From positions 1-36,462 of IMG/VR virus record IMGVR_UViG_3300042691_039044: a DNA stretch of 36,462 nucleotides. One strand, 5' to 3'. The first letter of the stretch is position 1. The number at the start of each line of letters is the position of its first letter. The stretch comes from a virus. The notes beneath the pieces were generated by a model that was not told where the DNA came from, did no database searches, and saw only the letters and a program-made list of their open reading frames with translations. Below, in pieces: positions 2,686 through 36,462 of this stretch. A program made the translations under genes and the position numbers.

Positions 2686-3008
2686 CCGCGGCCCCGGAGC
2701 ACAAGCTCGAGATCGTCCTCGGCGAGGGGCCTTTCGTCACCGACGACGACAAGCGGCCGGACGGGCGGTGGCTCGGCCGCACGCCGGACGGCCGCGTGAC
2801 GCTGGTGAAGCGGCGCGACGGGGCGGAGACGATCGCCTTCCAGCCCATCGACTTTGCCACCGCCGTCGGCCTGGCGCACCGCGTCATCGCCGGCGACGCC
2901 CGCACCATCACCGACCCGCTGACCCTCGCCGCGCTCGCCGTGGTGGTGGCGGAGCTCGGCCTGCATGCGCCGCCGGCGGAGCCCGCGGCGAGCCAGAAGG
3001 AGGGCTGA
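2682..3008 (+). CDS. Hypothetical early protein
   Basis: A 108-residue soluble protein whose N-terminal half looks like beta strands (LEIVLGEGPFVTDDD, RWLGRTPDGRVTLVKRRDG), followed by helices ending in a short Ala/Pro/Glu-rich tail. Its start overlaps the previous stop (ATGA), and it lies just upstream of the ParB-like gene. Codon use agrees with real coding. No family was recognised. Confidence 0.7.
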   Translation: MTAAPEHKLEIVLGEGPFVTDDDKRPDGRWLGRTPDGRVTLVKRRDGAETIAFQPIDFATAVGLAHRVIAGDARTITDPLTLAALAVVVAELGLHAPPAEPAASQKEG

Positions 3009-3012
3009 CGCC

Positions 3013-3990
3013 ATGGCTTTGCGACCGATCATCCCGGTGGAGGACATCACCGTGCAGGCGGCGACGCCGGCGAACGACCGCGGCCCCGCGCCGCAGCTGC
3101 AGTGGCTGAAGATCGCCGACCTGGTGGTGGACGAGACCTATCAGCGGCCGATCGGCCGGGCCGGCCGGGCCAATGTCAAGGCGATCGCCGAGGGCTTCCG
3201 CTGGCAGTCCTTCTCGCCGGTCATCGTCTCGCCGATCGACGGCGGCCGCTTCGCCATCGTCGACGGCCAGCACCGCGCCACCGCCGCCGCCCTCTGCGGC
3301 ATCGAGACTGTGCCCTGCCAGGTGATCCTCGCGACACCCGACGGGCAGGCGGCAGCCTTCGCCCAGATCAACGGCCGCACGACGTCGGTGCATTCCATGT
3401 CGCTTTTCCGTGCGGCGGTGGCCGCCGGCGACCCGGCGGCGCTGGTGACGCAGTCGGCTGCGGACCGCGCCGGCGTGACGATCCTGCCCTATCCGAAGCC
3501 GGTGGCCGAGCAGAAGCCGGGTGAGACGATGGCCCATGGCGCCATCGGGCTGGCCGTGCGCGAGCATGGCGTCGACCTGACCGCGCTGGCGCTGAAGGCG
3601 ATGCGCGGGCCGAACAACGACCACCGGGGCGTGCTGGTGGCGCCGCTCATCCGCGCCGTCTGCAGCGTGGTGGCGCAGCTGGCCAAGGCCGGGAAAACGG
3701 CGGCCGAGATCCACGCGGCGATCGACAGGCTGCGGCTGGCGCGCGAGCTGGACAGCACCATGGTGGCGGCGCGCGAGAAGGGCCGACCGCTCATTCCGCT
3801 GCTGGCCGAGCGGCTGCTGCACCACGCCACCCGCACCCTCGAGGGCGGAGGCGTTGCGCCGCCGCTGGCCGTCCCGCCGAAGCCCGCCGCGGTGGTGCAG
3901 GCCGCAAGGCCGGTGGTGCCCAGCGCCCATGCCGAGGCGGTGGAGCGCGCCAAGGCGGCGGTGCCCAGCCGCATCGACAGCCTGCGCTGA
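3013..3990 (+). CDS. ParB-like N-terminal domain protein (DUF6551-like)
   Basis: A 325-residue protein. Residues about 30-105 form a ParB/Spo0J-type domain: LKIADLVVDETYQRP, then a loop with FSPVIVSP and the signature VDGQHRATAA (83-92). Phage members of this group occur beside replication genes and may be DNA-binding or CTP-binding switches, though their exact role is poorly known. The C-terminal part (about 110-325) is helical and ends in a basic Ala/Val-rich tail. No parA gene is nearby, so a plasmid-style partition system is not supported. It sits directly upstream of the primase, and a role in replication control is inferred. Confidence 0.85.
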   Translation: MALRPIIPVEDITVQAATPANDRGPAPQLQWLKIADLVVDETYQRPIGRAGRANVKAIAEGFRWQSFSPVIVSPIDGGRFAIVDGQHRATAAALCGIETVPCQVILATPDGQAAAFAQINGRTTSVHSMSLFRAAVAAGDPAALVTQSAADRAGVTILPYPKPVAEQKPGETMAHGAIGLAVREHGVDLTALALKAMRGPNNDHRGVLVAPLIRAVCSVVAQLAKAGKTAAEIHAAIDRLRLARELDSTMVAAREKGRPLIPLLAERLLHHATRTLEGGGVAPPLAVPPKPAAVVQAARPVVPSAHAEAVERAKAAVPSRIDSLR

Positions 3991-3994
3991 CATC

Positions 3995-5047
3995 ATGCCC
4001 GACCTGACCGTCGCCGCCATCAAGGACCTGCTGGTGCCGCGCCTGGCCGAGCTGCTGGTGCGGCTCGCGCCGGGCATGCGGCGGCATGGCGGCTACTGGC
4101 AGGGGCCGAACCCGACGCGGGCGAAGGACGGCAAGACCAGCTTCACCGTGTGGCACAACGGCGCCTGGAAGGAATTCGACAGCGGCGAGAAGGGCGACAT
4201 CATCGACCTGATCGCCTATTGCCGGCAGGGCACGCGCGGCCAGGCCATTGCCTTCGCCAAGGATTTCCTCGGCCTGCGCAACATGCCGGAGGCCGAGCGC
4301 CGGCGACTGGACGAGCAGGCCCGCGCCCGCGCCGAGAGGCACCGCAAGGCCGAGGACGACGAGCGCCAGGCGAAGCAACGCCGGGCCTTCGAGATGTGGC
4401 TGGCGGGCCGGCCGGTGACGCCGGCGAGCGTGACCGGCCGCTATCTCGCCGGGCGCGGCATTGCGCTGGCCGAGCTGGTCAATGCCGAAGGCGACCTGAA
4501 GGACAGCGCGGGGTCTCTGAAATACTGGGGCCCGCGCGGCGAGGGCGACCGGCCATGGCTGGGCCCGGCGATGCTGGCGCCGATCCGCCAGCTCACCGGC
4601 GAGATCCTCGGCGTTCACGCGACCTTCCTGAAGCCCGACGGCACCGGCAAGGCGCCGGTGCTCAATGCCAAGCTGATGCTGGGCCTGAAGCAGGGCGGCT
4701 TCGTGCGCCTGTCGCGGGGCGTGAGCGGGCTGCCCTTCGGCGACCTCGAGAAGGTGGGCCTTAGCGAGCCGCTGGTGCTGGGCGAGGGGATCGAGACCTG
4801 CCTTTCCGTGGCGCTGGCGGTGCCGGAGGCGCGCGTCTGGGCGGCGCTGGACCTCGGCAACATGGCGACGCTGCAGCCGCACCCGGGCATCGGCCCGCTG
4901 GTGATCCTGAAAGAGAACGACACCAAGCCCGCGGCGATCGACCAGCGCCAGCGCGTGATGGACCAGCTGGCGGCCAAGGGCTTCGACATCCGGGAAATGG
5001 TGCCGCCGGCCGGAAACGACTTCAACGACACCCTGAAGGAGGAGTGA
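3995..5047 (+). CDS. Toprim-domain DNA primase
   Basis: A 350-residue protein. The N-terminal part (about 1-95), with GYWQGPNP, TSFTVWHNGAWKEFDSGEKG and DIIDLIAYC, resembles the CHC2/DnaG N-terminal domain but lacks a visible zinc cysteine set. A charged helix spans about 97-130. The Toprim domain begins with LVLGEGIET (260-268), whose Glu is the metal ligand, followed by a VWAALDLGNMA strand, then KENDTKPA and finally GNDFND (340-345), typical of phage and plasmid Toprim_3 primases. It would lay down RNA primers for phage replication next to the helicase at 6084. It starts five bases after the ParB-like gene. Confidence 0.88.
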   Translation: MPDLTVAAIKDLLVPRLAELLVRLAPGMRRHGGYWQGPNPTRAKDGKTSFTVWHNGAWKEFDSGEKGDIIDLIAYCRQGTRGQAIAFAKDFLGLRNMPEAERRRLDEQARARAERHRKAEDDERQAKQRRAFEMWLAGRPVTPASVTGRYLAGRGIALAELVNAEGDLKDSAGSLKYWGPRGEGDRPWLGPAMLAPIRQLTGEILGVHATFLKPDGTGKAPVLNAKLMLGLKQGGFVRLSRGVSGLPFGDLEKVGLSEPLVLGEGIETCLSVALAVPEARVWAALDLGNMATLQPHPGIGPLVILKENDTKPAAIDQRQRVMDQLAAKGFDIREMVPPAGNDFNDTLKEE

Positions 5048-6083: not shown

Positions 6084-7979
6084 ATGAGCCAGAAGGGCAA
6101 GAGCAACATCCGCGCGAGCTTCGCGGATGCGCTGGAGGGCCGCGTCTCCGTGACGCGGCGGCCGGACCCGCCGGCGGGCGACGACCGCCCGGTGGCCGAG
6201 GGCGGCTGGGGCTATGCCGCCAACCAGTGGGCCGGCGCGCCGGCCGACCGCATGCCGCCGGGCTGCCCTGTGATCGCGCTGGGCCGCGACGGCGAGCACT
6301 ACGTGTTCATGGACAGCATGGGCCAGCTGAACAAGGTGAAGCGCACGGAATGGTCGAAAAAGACCGTGCTGGACCTGTTCGCGGCCACCCCCAACTTTCC
6401 CATTCACCACTGGGCCCGCCTTTCGCCGCCGAAGAAGGGCGACGCGCAGTGGATCATCAACGGCATGGACGTGGACGACGCGGTGCAGTGCCTGATGCAC
6501 GCCTGCGCCCTCGAGGGGGCCATTTCCATCGCCAACACGGTGCGCGGCCGCGGCGCCTGGACGGTGGGCCCGCTGGCGGCGCTGCCCGGCCAGGGCGAGC
6601 TGGTGTGGCATGGCGGCGACGGGATCTATCGCGTGCGGCGGGGCAAGCTGGAAAGCGCCGGCCCCTCGGCGATCGACGGCGTGGTCTATCCCGGCCGGCC
6701 GCCGGTGCTGGCGCCGTGGAAGGAGCCGGTGCCGGTGAAGGACAGCCCGGCCACCGAGATCTTCGGCTGGCTGAAGACGTGGAACTTCGGCCGCAAGGTG
6801 CTGGACCCGGTGCTGGTGCTGGGATGGATCGGCGCGGCGCTGCTGGGCGGCGCCTTGCCCTGGCGGCCCTATATCTTTCTCGTGGGTGACCGCGGCGTCG
6901 GCAAGACGACGCTGCAGAACCTGGTGCGCGCCGTCCTCGGCGACACGCTGCTGCGCACCGCCGACGCGACCGCACCGGGCATTCGCCAGATGCTGGGCGC
7001 CGACAGCCTGCCCGTGGCGGTGGACGAGCTGGAGGGCGGCGCCGACGACCGGCGCGCCACCGGGATCCTCGACCTGGCGCGCATCGCCGCCTCGGCCGAC
7101 AAGGCGATCCGCGGCTCTTCCGACCATGAGGCGGTGAGCTTCACCATCCAGAGCGCCTTCATCTTCTCGGCCATCAACCCGCCGCGGCTGACCGTGGCCG
7201 ACAAGAGCCGCATGGCCTTCATCACGCTGGAGAAGCTGGCCCGCAGCCGCAGCGGCAAGGAGCCGGTGATCAACGACCAGGCGGTGGGCCGCCGGCTGCT
7301 GCGCGCCCTGATGGACGCATGGGCGGCCGACGGCGACACCGCCGGCTTCGCCCGCACCTTCGAGAACTGGCGGGCGGCGCTGCGCGAGGCCGACATGGAG
7401 GACCGCGCCCAGATGACCTATGGCACGCTGCTGGCCCTCGCCGAGCTGATGCTGGGGCCGGAGGCGCTCGAGGAGCACGGCGTGCCGATCGCCGAGCCGG
7501 CCCGCCTCGGCCAATGGGTGCGCGAGCAGACCGTTTCCGAGCGCGCCGAGCAGCGGGCCAACTGGACGCTCTGCCTCGACCGGCTCTTCGCCCACACGAT
7601 TTCCGCCTGGCGCGACGGCGTGCAGCCGACCGTGGGCGAGGTGGTGGACGCCTACATGCGCGACGAGCCGAACATGGGGAAGGAGGGCGCCCAGGCCCGC
7701 CTGAAGCTCGCCGGCCTTTCGGTGAAGGAGGACGGCGCAGGGGACGGGCGGCGGCCCTATCTCGCCGTGCCGATCTCGGCCGAGCTGGGGCCCGCCCGCG
7801 CCTTCGAGGGGACGCAGTGGCAGGGCGGCGGCTGGGCCACGGCGCTGAAACAGGCGCCGCCGGAGATCGTGATCCGCGACAGACAGAACTGGCAGGTGAT
7901 GAAGATCAACGGCCGGGCTGCGCAGTGCCTGATGGTGGATTTGCTGGCGCTGGAGAGCGCAGGGAAAGAGGAGGAATAG
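6084..7979 (+). CDS. Replicative ATPase/helicase (SF3/D5-like)
   Basis: A 631-residue protein. A Walker A motif is at 268-276 (GDRGVGKTT), and a Walker B-like strand VAVDELE is at 311-317. A later hydrophobic strand ending SAINPP (about 365-375) resembles the sensor-1/motif C region of SF3-type phage helicases, and a basic segment ARSRSGKEP follows. The N-terminal 220 residues would be the accessory or primase-associated domain, and the C-terminal part about 430-630 is helical. It follows the Toprim primase and precedes a GapR-family gene, so it is most likely the replicative helicase. It ends with the stop touching the next start. The exact superfamily is not certain; VirE/DUF927-like ATPases are an alternative. 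Confidence 0.82.
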   Translation: MSQKGKSNIRASFADALEGRVSVTRRPDPPAGDDRPVAEGGWGYAANQWAGAPADRMPPGCPVIALGRDGEHYVFMDSMGQLNKVKRTEWSKKTVLDLFAATPNFPIHHWARLSPPKKGDAQWIINGMDVDDAVQCLMHACALEGAISIANTVRGRGAWTVGPLAALPGQGELVWHGGDGIYRVRRGKLESAGPSAIDGVVYPGRPPVLAPWKEPVPVKDSPATEIFGWLKTWNFGRKVLDPVLVLGWIGAALLGGALPWRPYIFLVGDRGVGKTTLQNLVRAVLGDTLLRTADATAPGIRQMLGADSLPVAVDELEGGADDRRATGILDLARIAASADKAIRGSSDHEAVSFTIQSAFIFSAINPPRLTVADKSRMAFITLEKLARSRSGKEPVINDQAVGRRLLRALMDAWAADGDTAGFARTFENWRAALREADMEDRAQMTYGTLLALAELMLGPEALEEHGVPIAEPARLGQWVREQTVSERAEQRANWTLCLDRLFAHTISAWRDGVQPTVGEVVDAYMRDEPNMGKEGAQARLKLAGLSVKEDGAGDGRRPYLAVPISAELGPARAFEGTQWQGGGWATALKQAPPEIVIRDRQNWQVMKINGRAAQCLMVDLLALESAGKEEE

Positions 7980-8282: not shown

Positions 8283-8528
8283 ATGGTCGACACGCAATCG
8301 GTGGCGGCCGACCAGCTGAAATCCATCATCGAGCGCATCGAGCGGCTCAACGAGGAGAAGAATGCCCTCTCCGACGACATCCGCGACGTCTATGGCGAGG
8401 CCAAGGCCAACGGCTTCGACAAGCGCGTGCTGAAGCGGATCGTGGCCCTGCGCCGGCAGGACCGCGACCAGCGGATGGAGGAGGAGGCGATCCTCGAACT
8501 CTACATGCAAGCCCTGGGGATGGCGTGA
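8283..8528 (+). CDS. gapR: GapR/UPF0335 (DUF2312) family DNA-binding protein
   Basis: The 81-residue protein matches this alphaproteobacterial family along its whole length: [18 protein letters not shown], then [16 protein letters not shown] and a final [15 protein letters not shown]. Caulobacter GapR forms a clamp on overtwisted DNA ahead of replication and transcription forks and helps topoisomerases. A phage copy beside the replication genes probably assists the phage fork or competes with the host protein. It has an AAGGAGG site eight bases before ATG, and its end overlaps the next start by one base. The family assignment is secure; the phage role is inferred. Confidence 0.92.
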
Positions 8529-8713: not shown

Positions 8714-8811
8714 CAACCTGACGCCCCGCGCCCCGTCATGGGTGCGAAGCGTCTTCCGCGTTCTCCCTGCCCCGGCCCGCTGGGGGTTCAAGCGGACCGC
8801 GCCGGGTTGCT

Positions 8812-8841
8812 CCGGATCGGCCTCGACCACGGCCGATCCGG
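8812..8841 (+). terminator. Strong hairpin after the early operon (possible terminator)
   Basis: CCGGATCGGCC (8812-8822) and its exact complement GGCCGATCCGG (8831-8841) enclose an 8-base loop, about 100 bp after the last early gene. No T-run follows, so it is not a classical intrinsic terminator. It could stop or stabilise the early transcript, or form part of the adjacent repeat-rich region. Confidence 0.45.
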
Positions 8842-8908
8842 CCGGCGCGGGCAGTTAACGCGGGCTGGACCGTGCATCAATGCAAGGGGTGGCGACAGGT
8901 GCCGCGCG

Positions 8909-9147
8909 GCGGTTAGGAGCCTAACCGCCATGTAACCGGGCCGTAACCGGGAAACCGCAGCAACATCAACGGGTTAGGGTGGCGGTTACAGGGTTATGGC
9001 CTTTCGCGCGCGCGTCACGTGCGTGTGTATCGCGTATGCATGCGCATGTGAGGGCGGTGTCTATAACCCTATAACCCTATAACCGGAGAGGTTAAGTCTA
9101 TGAGAATGCAGGGGATTTCCGGTTAGTGGCGGGTTATGCGGCGGTTA
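8909..9147. repeat. Phased GGTTA/TAACC repeat array; candidate replication origin
   Basis: Fourteen copies of the pentamer GGTTA or its complement TAACC begin at 8911, 8922, 8933, 8944, 8972, 8984, 8992, 9064, 9072, 9080, 9090, 9121, 9132 and 9143. Several are exactly 11 bp apart (one helical turn) and three form a tandem 8-bp repeat CTATAACC. The array opens with a palindrome GCGGTTAGG-AG-CCTAACCGC (8909-8928). It occupies the gene-free stretch 8714-9222 between the replication genes and terminase. Phased short repeats next to replication genes suggest an iteron-type origin, or an operator array for the late genes. Confidence 0.65.
9005..9050. other. 46-bp alternating purine-pyrimidine (Z-DNA-prone) tract
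   Basis: Bases alternate pyrimidine and purine from 9005 to 9050, with only two breaks (after 9015 and after 9030). The tract includes CGCGCGCGCG and a GTGTGTAT run, and lies between the two halves of the phased pentamer array. Such tracts adopt Z-form readily under negative supercoiling. A role in origin opening is inferred from position. Confidence 0.6.
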
Positions 9148-9222
9148 CATGGGCCGCCGATCATGCGCCGGGTGCATGGCTCGCGAGGGCCAAGGGATTG
9201 AATATGCGAGGGAAATCGGCCG

Positions 9223-9858
9223 ATGGCCAACCGCCTGCCAGCTGACGACGCCGAGGGGTCCGTTTCCGGGGCCGAACAGGGCGCACACGCGGGGATTTCC
9301 CAGCGGGAGCCGGCCGGCGGCAACGTCCAGGCCGTGGCCGACCAGGCGGCGGCCGACCATCTCGCCTTCGAGGACGGGCTCGACGGTTTCAGCGGGCAGG
9401 CGATCGCGCCGCCGGCCAAGCGCGGGGCAGGGCGCCCGGCCGGATCGCCGAACCGGGCGACGTCCAAGGTGCGGGAATATCTGCTGGCGCGCGGCTATCG
9501 CGACCCTCTGGAGCAGGCGGCGGCGCTGGTGACGGCCGATCCGCGCGAGCTGGCGGCGAAACTCGCGAACAAGGCGCCGCAGCTGGTGACCTTCGGCGAG
9601 GCGCTGGCCGTCCTGGCCGAGCAGGGGAAGGCGAGGGGGCAGCTGCTGCCCTACTTCCACCAGGAGATGCCGAAGCCGAAGGAGCCGGAGCGCGAGGTTG
9701 AGAGACATTTCGTCGTCATCGTCGACAGCCCCGAGAAAGCGCAGCAGGTTCAACGGGTTATCGATGCGCGGGCGAACCCCTCACAAGGCGAGGCCGACGA
9801 CTGGCTCTCTGAACCCGTTGTGATCACTGACGAATTCCGTGTGAGGGACCATGATTGA
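9223..9858 (+). CDS. Probable terminase small subunit
   Basis: A 211-residue protein located before the large terminase. After a disordered N-terminal 60 residues comes GRPAGSPNRATSKVREYL (about 69-86), the basic GRPxGSxN motif typical of small terminases and DUF5681-like packaging proteins. Helical segments suited to DNA recognition and oligomerisation follow (PLEQAAALVTADPRELAAKLA), then an acidic C-terminus. It would recognise the packaging site on phage DNA and regulate the large subunit. GAGGGA lies about eight bases before ATG. The assignment rests on the motif and gene order. Confidence 0.7.
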   Translation: MANRLPADDAEGSVSGAEQGAHAGISQREPAGGNVQAVADQAAADHLAFEDGLDGFSGQAIAPPAKRGAGRPAGSPNRATSKVREYLLARGYRDPLEQAAALVTADPRELAAKLANKAPQLVTFGEALAVLAEQGKARGQLLPYFHQEMPKPKEPEREVERHFVVIVDSPEKAQQVQRVIDARANPSQGEADDWLSEPVVITDEFRVRDHD

Positions 9859-10156
9859 AAATCACGTGCTCCACCTCGGCCGCCTGGCCCCGCGCGTTCC
9901 GCCCGCGCTCGCGGGTGCGCGCATGCCCCCCCGCCCCCTCGCGCGCCCGCCCGCGCCCGCCCGCGCGCGCGACCTCGAAAAACCGGCCCCGGCCCCCCCT
10001 CCCCGGGGGGTGCTCCAGCACACTCACCGCCGATCGAAAGGTCGCCCTCGGCCGGGGCGGGGCGGGCGGTCCATCGGGCTCGGGCAAGGGGCGCGGGGGC
10101 CGGGCGGTCCCGGTGCGCCGATCATCCGGGCGGCGGGCCAGCGGGGGCGGGCATGA
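9851..10156 (+). CDS. Doubtful Pro/Arg-rich small ORF between terminase genes
   Basis: A 101-codon frame overlaps the end of the small terminase gene and ends in ATGA with the large terminase start, so both ends look coupled. The product is extremely Pro-, Arg- and Gly-rich (MPPRPLARPPAPARARDLE). Both its composition and its G/C third positions simply follow the extreme base composition of the stretch (see 9926-10104), so codon signal is uninformative here. It may be a real small gene or merely a non-coding packaging or structural region lacking stops. Confidence 0.3.
   Translation: MIENHVLHLGRLAPRVPPALAGARMPPRPLARPPAPARARDLEKPAPAPPPRGVLQHTHRRSKGRPRPGRGGRSIGLGQGARGPGGPGAPIIRAAGQRGRA
9926..10104. 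other. Strand-switching C-run/G-run region between terminase genes (G-quadruplex-prone; possible packaging site)
   Basis: Positions 9926-9962 carry six C-runs on the plus strand (7, 5, then four of 3), giving quadruplex potential on the minus strand. Positions 10054-10104 carry eight G-runs on the plus strand, with a canonical four-run motif at 10076-10104. The switch falls around CCCCGGGG (10001-10008). Lying beside terminase, it is a candidate cos or pac site, but no cleavage site can be seen. Confidence 0.5.
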
Positions 10157-11820
10157 CCGACATCCTCACCTCGGGCGAAAAGCTGTCCAGCCGCCAGCTC
10201 GAAGATCTGATGAATTCCTATCGCGGCCTCGGCGAGACGCCCTTCCGCATGCCTCAGCAGGCCACCTTCTCGCTCGGAACCTACACGCCGCCGGGCCCGG
10301 TCTGCGGCGCCTATATCCGCTCCGAGGGGCCGATCGACGCCATCATGGGCCCCGGCGGCTCCGGCAAGACGATCGGCAGCGCCTTCAAGGCGGTGCGCTT
10401 CGTGGTGAAGCTGATGCCGATCTGCCTCGACGGCGTGATCCGCGGCAAGGTCACGGTGGTCCGCGACAACTACCGCCAGCTCTACAAGTCCACCCTGCAG
10501 AGCTGGTTCCACTGGTTCCCGACCACGCGCCACCCGGACTTCTCCGGCGGTCAGGACCGCCCCGGCACGCACCGGCTGAAGCTGATGACCTATCGCGAGA
10601 TCCGCGGCGTCATGCGCGAGGTGAAGGTCGACCTGCAGGTGGAGTTCTTCGCCATCGCCGATATCGACTATGAGTTCGCCTTCAAGTCGTATGAAACCAG
10701 CTACGCCTGGCCCACCGAGGCCGACAGCCTGCCGCCGGCGTCCATCCCGTTCTTCTTCTCGCGCACCGGCCGCTATCCCTCGCTGGACCTGCTGCCCGAC
10801 GAGGTGCGCGCCCTGGACGAGCCGCTGCCCCGCGCCCTCGGCTGGGACATGAACCCGCCGCCGCCCAAGCATCCGACCCTTGTGGCGGCCCAGCGCGGCT
10901 CCTTCCGCGAGGACTTCGACCCGGCGAAGGACCGCCGCACCATCAACTTCTTCGTCCAGCCCTCCGGCCTCGCCGAGAACGCCGAGAACCGCGCCGGCAA
11001 GACCCGCCGCGCCTACGAGCTCGAGCTCGAGGTGATGCCGAAGGACGACGCCCGCCGCATGGTGCTCGGCCTGCCGGGCCGCGTGAAGGACGGCCTGCCG
11101 GTCTATGACGAGGACTTCGACCGCGAGAAGCATGTCGCGCCGTCGGCCATCGAGATCCTGCCGAACGTGCCGCTGCATCTCGGCTTCGACCAGGGCGGGC
11201 AGTCGGGCGGCGCCGGCCAGCCGGCCGTCGTCGGCTTCCAGGTCGCGCCGAACGGGCAATATCGCGGCGTTCTGTCCATCGCCACCAAGCCGGGCACCGG
11301 CGCCGAGCGCTTCCTCGACCAGCTGGTGCCGGTCCTGCGCGGCCGCTTCCGAAACGTGCCGCCGGGCGTCTGGACGGGCGACCCCGCGGGCTTCATGGGC
11401 GGCGACAAGGTCTATGGAACGCTGTCATGGTTCGAGATCGTGCAGCGCACCCTCGGCCACCGCATCGATCCGGCGCATACCCAGCAATGGACCGAACGGC
11501 TCGAGGCGCTCGGCACGCTCATGCGGCGCGACATCAGCCGCGACACGCCGCGCCTTCTCCTGTGCCCCATTCATTGCGGCCCGCTGATCGAGGCGCTGGC
11601 CGGCGACTTCAAGTTCGGCAAACGCCACGACGGCACCTATGACCCGCTGCCGGTCAAGAACATGGCGGCCAACGTGGCTGAAGCCGCGCAATATGTCTGC
11701 CTCGGCCTGCAGGGGCTCGCCGGCGTGGCGGGCATGATCACCAACTCCTTCAACCCCTCCAACGTCCATTCCCTCACGCCCCGCGCCGTCGTGCAGACGG
11801 GCGACTGGCCGGTGTTTTGA
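10153..11820 (+). CDS. terL: Terminase large subunit
   Basis: A 555-residue packaging motor. The Walker A motif is GPGGSGKT (66-73), followed by the family segment VTVVRDNYRQLYKSTLQSW (100-118). The adenosine-binding/ATPase region continues through FFAIADIDYEF (165-175) and TEADSLP. The RNase H-like nuclease domain begins at LGFDQGG (D346), with a further acidic GDPAGFMGGDK segment. It translocates DNA into the prohead and cuts the concatemer. The small-terminase-like gene precedes it and the portal follows two genes later, the standard order. The start ATG overlaps the previous frame. Confidence 0.93.
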   Translation: MTDILTSGEKLSSRQLEDLMNSYRGLGETPFRMPQQATFSLGTYTPPGPVCGAYIRSEGPIDAIMGPGGSGKTIGSAFKAVRFVVKLMPICLDGVIRGKVTVVRDNYRQLYKSTLQSWFHWFPTTRHPDFSGGQDRPGTHRLKLMTYREIRGVMREVKVDLQVEFFAIADIDYEFAFKSYETSYAWPTEADSLPPASIPFFFSRTGRYPSLDLLPDEVRALDEPLPRALGWDMNPPPPKHPTLVAAQRGSFREDFDPAKDRRTINFFVQPSGLAENAENRAGKTRRAYELELEVMPKDDARRMVLGLPGRVKDGLPVYDEDFDREKHVAPSAIEILPNVPLHLGFDQGGQSGGAGQPAVVGFQVAPNGQYRGVLSIATKPGTGAERFLDQLVPVLRGRFRNVPPGVWTGDPAGFMGGDKVYGTLSWFEIVQRTLGHRIDPAHTQQWTERLEALGTLMRRDISRDTPRLLLCPIHCGPLIEALAGDFKFGKRHDGTYDPLPVKNMAANVAEAAQYVCLGLQGLAGVAGMITNSFNPSNVHSLTPRAVVQTGDWPVF

Positions 11821-33281: not shown

Positions 33282-33357
33282 ACCGTTCGGCCGTTCGTGA
33301 GGCGGCCGGAGCAGTGCAGTGCATGCAGCCCTCCTTGGGCGTTTCCTCCCTGAACTC

Positions 33358-33395
33358 GAGCCCGCGTCGCCAACCGTCCGGCGCGGGCTCTTTTT
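33358..33395 (+). terminator. Rho-independent terminator of the late operon
   Basis: GAGCCCGCG (33358-33366) pairs with CGCGGGCTC (33382-33390), and TTTTT follows directly. It is 77 bp after the last late gene and reads rightward, ending the late transcript before the attachment site. Confidence 0.9.
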
Positions 33396-33414
33396 CATGG
33401 CGGAAACACCGCAA

Positions 33415-36257: not shown

Positions 36258-36462
36258 GGCGCAACTCCATAGCGCTGGTCGAGAAGGGAGCGGTGCTGGG
36301 CGACGGCGTCGGCCGGGCGATCGTTCGCCGGCGCAGGCGCTGCGAAGGCGCCGCCATTGGTGCGGAACCAGAGGTCGACGCAGTGGCGGGAGAAGCGCGC
36401 CGGCAGGCCCGGCAGCGCATGGGGGAAGCCGTGCTTCTCCTGCAGCCGGCGCACGGTGGCGC
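36254..36462 (-). CDS. Excisionase-like HTH protein, C-terminal part (gene begins at 137)
   Basis: C-terminal portion of the 91-residue Xis-like protein whose start lies at 137 after circular closure. The residues shown include RRLQEKHGFPHALPGLPARF and FSRHCVDLWFRTNGG. The gene as a whole is 36392-36254 joined with 137-1; bases 36393-36462 are the duplicated overlap. Its stop overlaps the next start by ATGA. Confidence 0.75.
   Translation of the reverse strand, partial: ATVRRLQEKHGFPHALPGLPARFSRHCVDLWFRTNGGAFAAPAPANDRPADAVAQHRSLLDQRYGVAP
36393..36462. repeat. Terminal direct repeat, right copy
   Basis: Identical to 1-70. Removing one copy gives a circular molecule of about 36,392 bp with an uninterrupted Xis-like gene across the join. 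Confidence 0.9.

Follow-up and report, generated by a model that had tools for sequence, protein, structure and literature searches.

The window analyzed in this work is the entire virus record IMGVR_UViG_3300042691_039044, a stretch of 36,462 bases with a GC content of 70.7%. Since positions 1 to 70 recur as a direct repeat of 70 bp at positions 36393 to 36462, and contig L002 bridges the join between the two ends, the virus genome is very likely circular and fully contained in the record, a point absent from the initial annotation. No near DNA match for bases 1 to 25000 was found in the phage sequences searched. The genes leading up to the locus encode a ParB-like protein (2965 to 3990); a primase on the forward strand (3854 to 5047) with DUF7146 and Toprim_3 domains, whose start codon is uncertain; an SF3-type helicase of 631 amino acids, also on the forward strand (6084 to 7979), which carries the Walker A motif GDRGVGKT at residue 268 and is our proposed initiator; and a GapR-like DNA-binding protein (8283 to 8528, forward strand; PF10073, E value of 1.7e-32). 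After the small ORF that follows the GapR-like gene comes a gene-free stretch of 509 bp (8714 to 9222), which harbors the repeat array described below. The next ORF (9223 to 9858, forward strand) is the probable small terminase gene, terS. This assignment rests on a GRPxG motif and on the position before the large terminase gene, TerL (10153 to 11820, forward strand), and on nothing further; the ORF has no Pfam match and a single weak, unnamed PHROG. The gene-free stretch and the primase, helicase-like and GapR neighbors agree with the initial annotation of this DNA, which had also named a DnaA-C-like gene; no DnaA-C domain was found among the ORFs scanned. Elsewhere in the phage genome, positions 33321 to 33403 match the Rfam suhB/mmgR sRNA family (RF00519) with 52.8 bits, against a gathering threshold of 41.

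Within the gene-free stretch, 14 copies of the pentamer GGTTA or its complement TAACC were observed between positions 8911 and 9147, all of them where the initial annotation had placed them and with exact spacings of 11, 11, 11 / 12, 8 / 8, 8 / 11, 11 bp. The whole record contains 18 such pentamers, so that 14 of the 18 fall within 237 bp; shuffled records contained a mean of 6.08 (standard deviation, 2.25; maximum, 12), and none of 100 reached 18. The left outer group (8911 to 8948) has GGTTA on the plus strand at 8911 and on the minus strand at 8922, 8933 and 8944, in 11-bp steps, and is followed by a left inner group of plus-strand sites (8972 to 8996) at 8972, 8984 and 8992, with steps of 12 and 8 bp. 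On the other side, a right inner group of minus-strand sites (9064 to 9084) at 9064, 9072 and 9080, in 8-bp steps, mirrors the left inner group. A lone extra plus-strand site (9090 to 9094) comes next, and then, 41 bp from the inner group, the right outer group (9121 to 9147), with plus-strand sites at 9121, 9132 and 9143 in 11-bp steps. The two half-arrays mirror each other, with 12 of the 14 sites pairing within 5 bp about a center at 9028; the initial annotation had not described this symmetry.

The central step of 72 bp between the half-arrays contains a tract of alternating purines and pyrimidines (9005 to 9050), a candidate opening site. The tract had been described as a 46-bp alternating stretch, but the alternation is not perfect, holding in 43 of 45 steps. 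It consists of three abutting runs (11, 15 and 20 bp) separated by T-C breaks, one at 9015/16 and one at 9030/31, and is the most alternating 46-bp stretch of the whole record. A home-made Z-energy ranking placed the tract twelfth among 24-mers and gives no support for a unique Z-proneness; this ranking was set aside because strict alternation was not enforced. The center of the array is not significantly AT-rich (GC content of 0.63 versus 0.71 for the record; p = 0.11).

Conservation of the array was evaluated in two diverged relatives, contig L006, found by a TerL search (TerL 63% identical), and L008, found by an array-pattern scan (DNA 72.8% identical over 8.3 kb). Scans of genome contigs with the helicase and with the array pattern gave no match. 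All 14 pentamers are retained in L008 and 13 of 14 in L006, with order and sense unchanged. The four sites of the left outer group, both inner groups and the right outer group are kept in both relatives; the sole site lost is the lone extra one, which reads GGTAA in L006. The steps equal those of the window except for the central step (81 versus 72 bp). As many as 69 of 70 pentamer letters in L006 and 70 of 70 in L008 match the window, compared with 61 (L006) and 56 (L008) of 100 letters in the spacers beyond the center; the center itself matches at 54 of 67 letters in each. The initial annotation had stated that loss of the pentamers in relatives would refute its reading; instead, they are conserved, and above the level of the spacers, in both relatives. 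Together with the shuffled records, this site conservation rules out a tandem or chance repeat.

Two further elements were observed upstream of the array. A bulged 20-bp hairpin (8797 to 8850, plus strand) has a predicted energy of -44.3 kcal/mol as RNA (z score of -4.3). In L006 and L008, whose sequences agree with each other there, three of its pairs have both partners altered; the bulge RTTGCT and the loop TCRACCAC are retained in both. Between the hairpin and the array, a CCGTGCATCAATGCAAGGG block (8870 to 8888) has the same letters in the window, L006 and L008.

Next, loci of related helicases were surveyed. Alignment of the helicase against IMG/VR gave 413 relatives, of which 80 were listed; these were grouped at 80% identity into 61 clusters, including that of the window itself. 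Each locus was given a score combining word clustering and mirror pairing and, since mirror pairing is part of it, this score rewards symmetry by design. Among the 80 of 413 relatives listed, 56 of 61 clusters exceeded 8.70, the highest score reached by any of 183 dinucleotide-shuffled loci; 50 scored above 12 and 44 above 15. One array, that of L072, was dropped as a false positive, leaving 49 of 50. As seen in these 49 arrays, the word is variable, with 30 distinct best-scoring strings (again among the 80 of 413 relatives listed) that merge into 13 groups when those sharing a 5-mer are joined. Tandem inner sites 7 to 9 bp apart flank the center on both sides in 35 of the 49 and on at least one side in 47, and a step of 39 to 46 bp leads to an outer group in 37, of which 17 have it on both sides. 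The array of L042 is a perfect mirror and that of L054 is one base off. In 15 of the 49 the array starts within 200 bp of the 3' end of the helicase gene; in the window this distance is 932 bp, with three small ORFs between.

As a control, 35 loci (21 clusters) were fetched with the TerL of BcepC6B, which is 29% identical to the window TerL; the helicase studied here was absent from all of them in the DNA available. Only 4 of 21 control clusters scored above 12, versus 50 of 61 helicase clusters (Fisher p = 4e-7), and when at least six mirrored sites were also required, 1 of 21 remained versus 44 of 61 (Fisher p = 4e-8); L072 is still counted in both comparisons. In three of the four high-scoring controls (L125, L126 and L132), a different gene of the primase/SF3 type ends directly before the array; its domains are DUF5906/D5/Toprim, DUF5906/VapE or RepB-primase, and in L125 and L126 a CACACACGC-type tract again occupies a gap within the array. 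The fourth, L128, is a plain tandem repeat. The array layout may therefore extend to other SF3 families.

The same layout with other words was also observed in GenBank phages. In phage MT835534, the helicase is 31% and TerL 29% identical to the window counterparts over the matched parts, and between these two genes lies a GGTTCT/AGAACC array with 8-bp steps and sites facing each other across a CACGCG-type tract. Further arrays, sought by a blind word-cluster scan, were built on GTTAC in MT835930, CGTTAG in Synechococcus phage S-H1, GTTACA in Acinetobacter phage Acjo_20, and GTTACC in Bdellovibrio phage phi1422, where the steps 9, 10, 14, 64, 8, 89, 8, 64, 14, 10 and 9 form a perfect mirror. 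A helicase match was present in 23 GenBank records, 10 of which were examined for arrays; seven of the 10 scored above 12. KLER1-1, with 8.4, is below this threshold, and PBb001 and ZRG1 possess the helicase without an array in the stretch read, which counts against an origin. The array abuts the helicase 3' end in phi1422, S-H1 and MinM1, as in the survey loci L095 and L097, and lies 265 bp before the helicase gene in Acjo_20. The helicases of S-H1, MQ-4, Acjo_20, phi1422 and MinM1 match that of the window with E values of 6e-34 to 2e-16. In contrast, the large terminases of S-H1, MinM1, MQ-4 and phi1422 have no significant similarity to the window TerL (best E value of 0.036), and neither does the gene beside terS in Acjo_20 (0.036 or worse). 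Therefore, what these five phages have in common is the helicase and the array. The small gene directly after the S-H1 array (9757 to 10122 of L016) has a weak NikA-like/ribbon-helix-helix match, and the one directly after the phi1422 array (9883 to 10071 of L018) resembles it by eye, without a Pfam match. No description of such phage arrays was found in the titles and abstract openings searched; most subscription papers were outside this coverage.

We also compared the centers of the survey arrays. A center could be defined in 46 arrays (4 of 50 were dropped), and in 38 of the 46 it contains an alternating run of a length reached by at most 1% of equal-length windows of the same locus. Significantly AT-rich centers (at a p threshold of 0.05) numbered 7 of 46, and 44 of 46 had a long alternating run or were AT-rich. 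These windows are mostly coding, which limits the control, and a few centers look misplaced, for example those of L068, L069 and L094 (40 to 41 bp). An earlier method of choosing the centers, which had given a long alternating run in 36 of 49, was replaced since some of its centers were wrong. Among the exceptions, the center of L095 is a long CT repeat (6690 to 6770) and that of L086 is purine-rich; those of phi1422 and Acjo_20 are AT-rich by eye. Overall, the novelty lies in this array family, which combines a single geometry with many words and a recurring center of alternating purines and pyrimidines, mostly in GC-rich phages.

The helicase itself has no Pfam match at an E value of 0.01, and a PDB sequence search with its profile returned only weak P-loop or chance matches; several of its relatives contain primase domains within the same protein. 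An AlphaFold model was built from 60 sequences (mean pLDDT of 91.7). Its best VIA-align match is SCCmec Cch (5dgk_B; Z score of 16.3, root mean square deviation of 6.0, 437 residues), followed by SaPI5 Rep (7ola_B; Z score of 13.6), which is tied with MCM chains (Z scores of about 13); SaPIbov1 Rep (8tch_B) reaches a Z score of 12.5 over 344 residues extending to residue 628. Only Cch stands above the MCM chains. By Foldseek E value, ASFV PrimPol and NrS-1 helicase chains come ahead of 5dgk, but their TM-scores are lower than its 0.42. The window helicase is thus predicted, from this model, to have the SCCmec Cch/SaPI Rep fold.

Covariation between protein and word was evaluated along the helicase and for the small terminase. 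Among helicase segments, residues 575 to 615 rank first (partial r = 0.20, corrected p = 0.032, N = 43); this significance was confined to the 40-residue scan, and the C terminus as a whole was not significant (p = 0.175, N = 49). A first comparison of helicase with TerS gave 0.285 versus 0.253 (N = 34). One pair from it, L069 and L070, which seemed to combine the same word with different TerS proteins, was discarded because the TerS ORF chosen for L069 looked spurious. In a rerun, 4 of 35 loci without the GRPxG motif were dropped and 31 kept, of which 30 were compared, the one left out being L020, a near copy of the window. Partial r values were then 0.288 for helicase residues 575 to 615, 0.238 for whole TerS and 0.321 for the TerS motif region. 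Such correlations do not decide for either the helicase or TerS as the putative reader of the word.

Consequently, a packaging site (pac/cos), in which TerS would bind the repeats and terminase would cut at or near the array, has to be weighed. The covariation of TerS with the word, as good as that of the helicase tail, speaks for it, as does the position of the arrays: among those with a window-type TerL match, 37 of 40 end 771 to 1,349 bp before TerL, and their distance to the helicase end varies from 11 to 3,328 bp (under 200 bp in 10 of 37). Moreover, about 60 bp separate the end of the L079 array from a following ORF that has a GRPKG motif, and the arrays of L074, L076 and L078 adjoin or overlap an ORF that is TerS-like by eye; in these four loci primase and helicase follow, the helicase 2.0 to 3.7 kb further on. 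The two of these ORFs that were scanned, from L079 and L074, have no Pfam match. Nevertheless, adjacency to terS is not family-wide. The phi1422 array is about 7.5 kb from TerL, that of Acjo_20, assuming a circular record, is separated from terS by about 4 kb, and in S-H1 an annotated beta-clamp gene stands between array and terminase. The same layout recurs beside the helicase in phages whose large terminases lack significant similarity to that of the window. In the converse case of a homologous TerL unaccompanied by this helicase, 17 of the 21 control clusters have no array scoring above 12; the 29% identity of the control TerL to that of the window makes this a better test of packaging. L080 and L026 differ in word (AATTAG versus GGTTGA) despite TerS proteins that are 59% identical and have the same GRPKGAANKRT stretch; their helicases are 46% identical in segment 575 to 615 versus 75% in the AAA+ part. 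Three near-identical assemblies also continue unbroken through the array. We therefore regard packaging as improbable, but not fully excluded.

Regulation of transcription, by an operator or late-promoter control at the boundary of early and late genes, would fit an array that, in the window and its clade, stands between the replication genes and those for terminase. In Acjo_20 and phi1422, however, the arrays belong to the replication region and the terminase genes are kilobases away. An operator with about 12 mirrored sites spread across 230 bp and a special center would, in our judgment, also be unusual, which leaves this explanation with very little weight. Centromeres can be iteron arrays, and the ParB-like gene at 2965 to 3990 could supply the reader of a partition site; yet a ParB-like match is near only 3 of the 49 survey arrays (in flanks reaching at most about 5 kb beyond the helicase), and partition appears highly implausible. 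The outline of about 240 bp, with mirrored repeats around a core, is also similar to attP and protelomerase targets, which would make the locus a site of attachment or telomere resolution whose core is flanked by arm-type repeats. The window ORFs that were Pfam-scanned (not every ORF) contain neither an integrase nor a protelomerase domain, the central tract is by eye no long palindrome, and we give this last possibility almost no credence.

The initial annotation had proposed a candidate phage origin, and this remains the best-supported reading, given the site conservation and the recurrence of the layout near homologous helicases. We consider it probable, in the absence of replication data, that the array is a podovirus replication origin working like PICI, SaPI and P4 origins, and we infer that it is bound by the SF3-type helicase. 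The cumulative GC skew of the record peaks at about 9001 to 10500 and hence turns near the array; this turn is a maximum, the polarity of a terminus and opposite to that of a usual origin, and counts against the reading. As for the reader of the sites, it is likely the helicase rather than the ParB-like or GapR-like protein, because a ParB-like match is so rarely near the arrays and a GapR-like match is near only 7 of the 49 (same flanks); this is inferred without binding data. A GapR homologue was matched by tblastn in 14 of 80 helicase loci, one of them weakly (80 of 413 relatives listed). A DnaA-like reader, like ParB or GapR, was rejected, there being no DnaA-C domain in the ORFs scanned.

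We propose that the helicase (6084 to 7979) would bind the pentamers, probably via its C-terminal segment, and that copies on the two mirrored half-arrays, inferred to be two opposed hexamers, would face each other across the center. The facing helicases would melt or distort the tract at 9005 to 9050 and then might travel away from the center, giving two forks with primers made by the phage primase, so that replication would be bidirectional. A broader proposal, which is speculative and which we hold to be possible but rather doubtful, is that of a widespread class of phage origins in which SF3-type helicases keep the mirrored layout while lineages rewrite the word, and in which GC-rich members open at the conserved alternating tract, by a Z-DNA flip or breakage at a B-Z junction under negative supercoiling, and not at an AT-rich element. 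From sequence, the rule of site geometry indicates where the origin is likely to lie in dozens of uncultured phages, and the rewritten words offer a natural series from which to learn how the origin code of an SF3 helicase is read and altered. The alternating center, moreover, makes an old question testable, namely, whether Z-prone DNA can serve as an origin opening element.

The closest known systems are the origins of PICIs and of P4. In PICI origins, one iteron set lies on each side of a putative melting region, and the Rep helicase is beside them (PMC6092414, PMC7581432); the coli PICI origins compared always have the two sets around an AT-rich region (PMC6092414), and SaPI Rep reads the iterons through its C-terminal domain (PMC7581432). 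The window likewise has two iteron sets, its mirrored halves, around a central region (9005 to 9050), and its helicase is, by the fold of the AlphaFold2 model, of the Cch/SaPI Rep kind. It differs in being a phage genome and not a satellite island, in having primase and helicase as separate genes with the array 0.93 kb past the helicase and three small ORFs between, and in its center, which is alternating purine-pyrimidine and failed the test for AT richness. Because an AT-rich center was tested and not met, we do not file the array as a PICI origin. SF3 initiators such as SV40 T antigen and papilloma E1 are viral helicases that recognize their own origin (PMC7581432); theirs is an N-terminal DNA-binding domain, whereas a C-terminal segment is suspected in the window helicase. 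No O-like initiator was found among the window ORFs scanned, and this sets the locus apart from lambda-type origins, in which iterons bound by the O protein lie beside a melting region; there, a single tandem iteron set is present instead of mirrored half-arrays.

The spacing of the sites resembles that of P4, whose alpha protein has a solved structure for its C-terminal part (1ka8). The annotated type 1 repeats of P4 ori are at 9310-, 9320-, 9331-, 9353+, 9396- and 9406- (position and strand), giving steps of 10, 11, 22, 43 and 10 with senses ---+--; a half-array of survey locus L036 has steps of 10, 10, 13, 41 and 8 with the same senses. Each copy of P4 crr contains two sites spaced by 9 bp, together with a 43-bp step, but the outer steps of 18 and 14 match less well than those of ori. 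Furthermore, the P4 word is GGTGAACA and not GGTTA, and its two halves are apart, one located in ori and the other, in the form of direct repeats, about 4.7 kb away in crr; those of the window, by contrast, are adjacent and face each other. Given the two-iteron-set origins of PICIs and the matching half-array spacing of P4 ori, the statement in the initial annotation that no known origin type has this pattern was too strong: both are comparable, and one site geometry would tie together phage, PICI and P4 origins.
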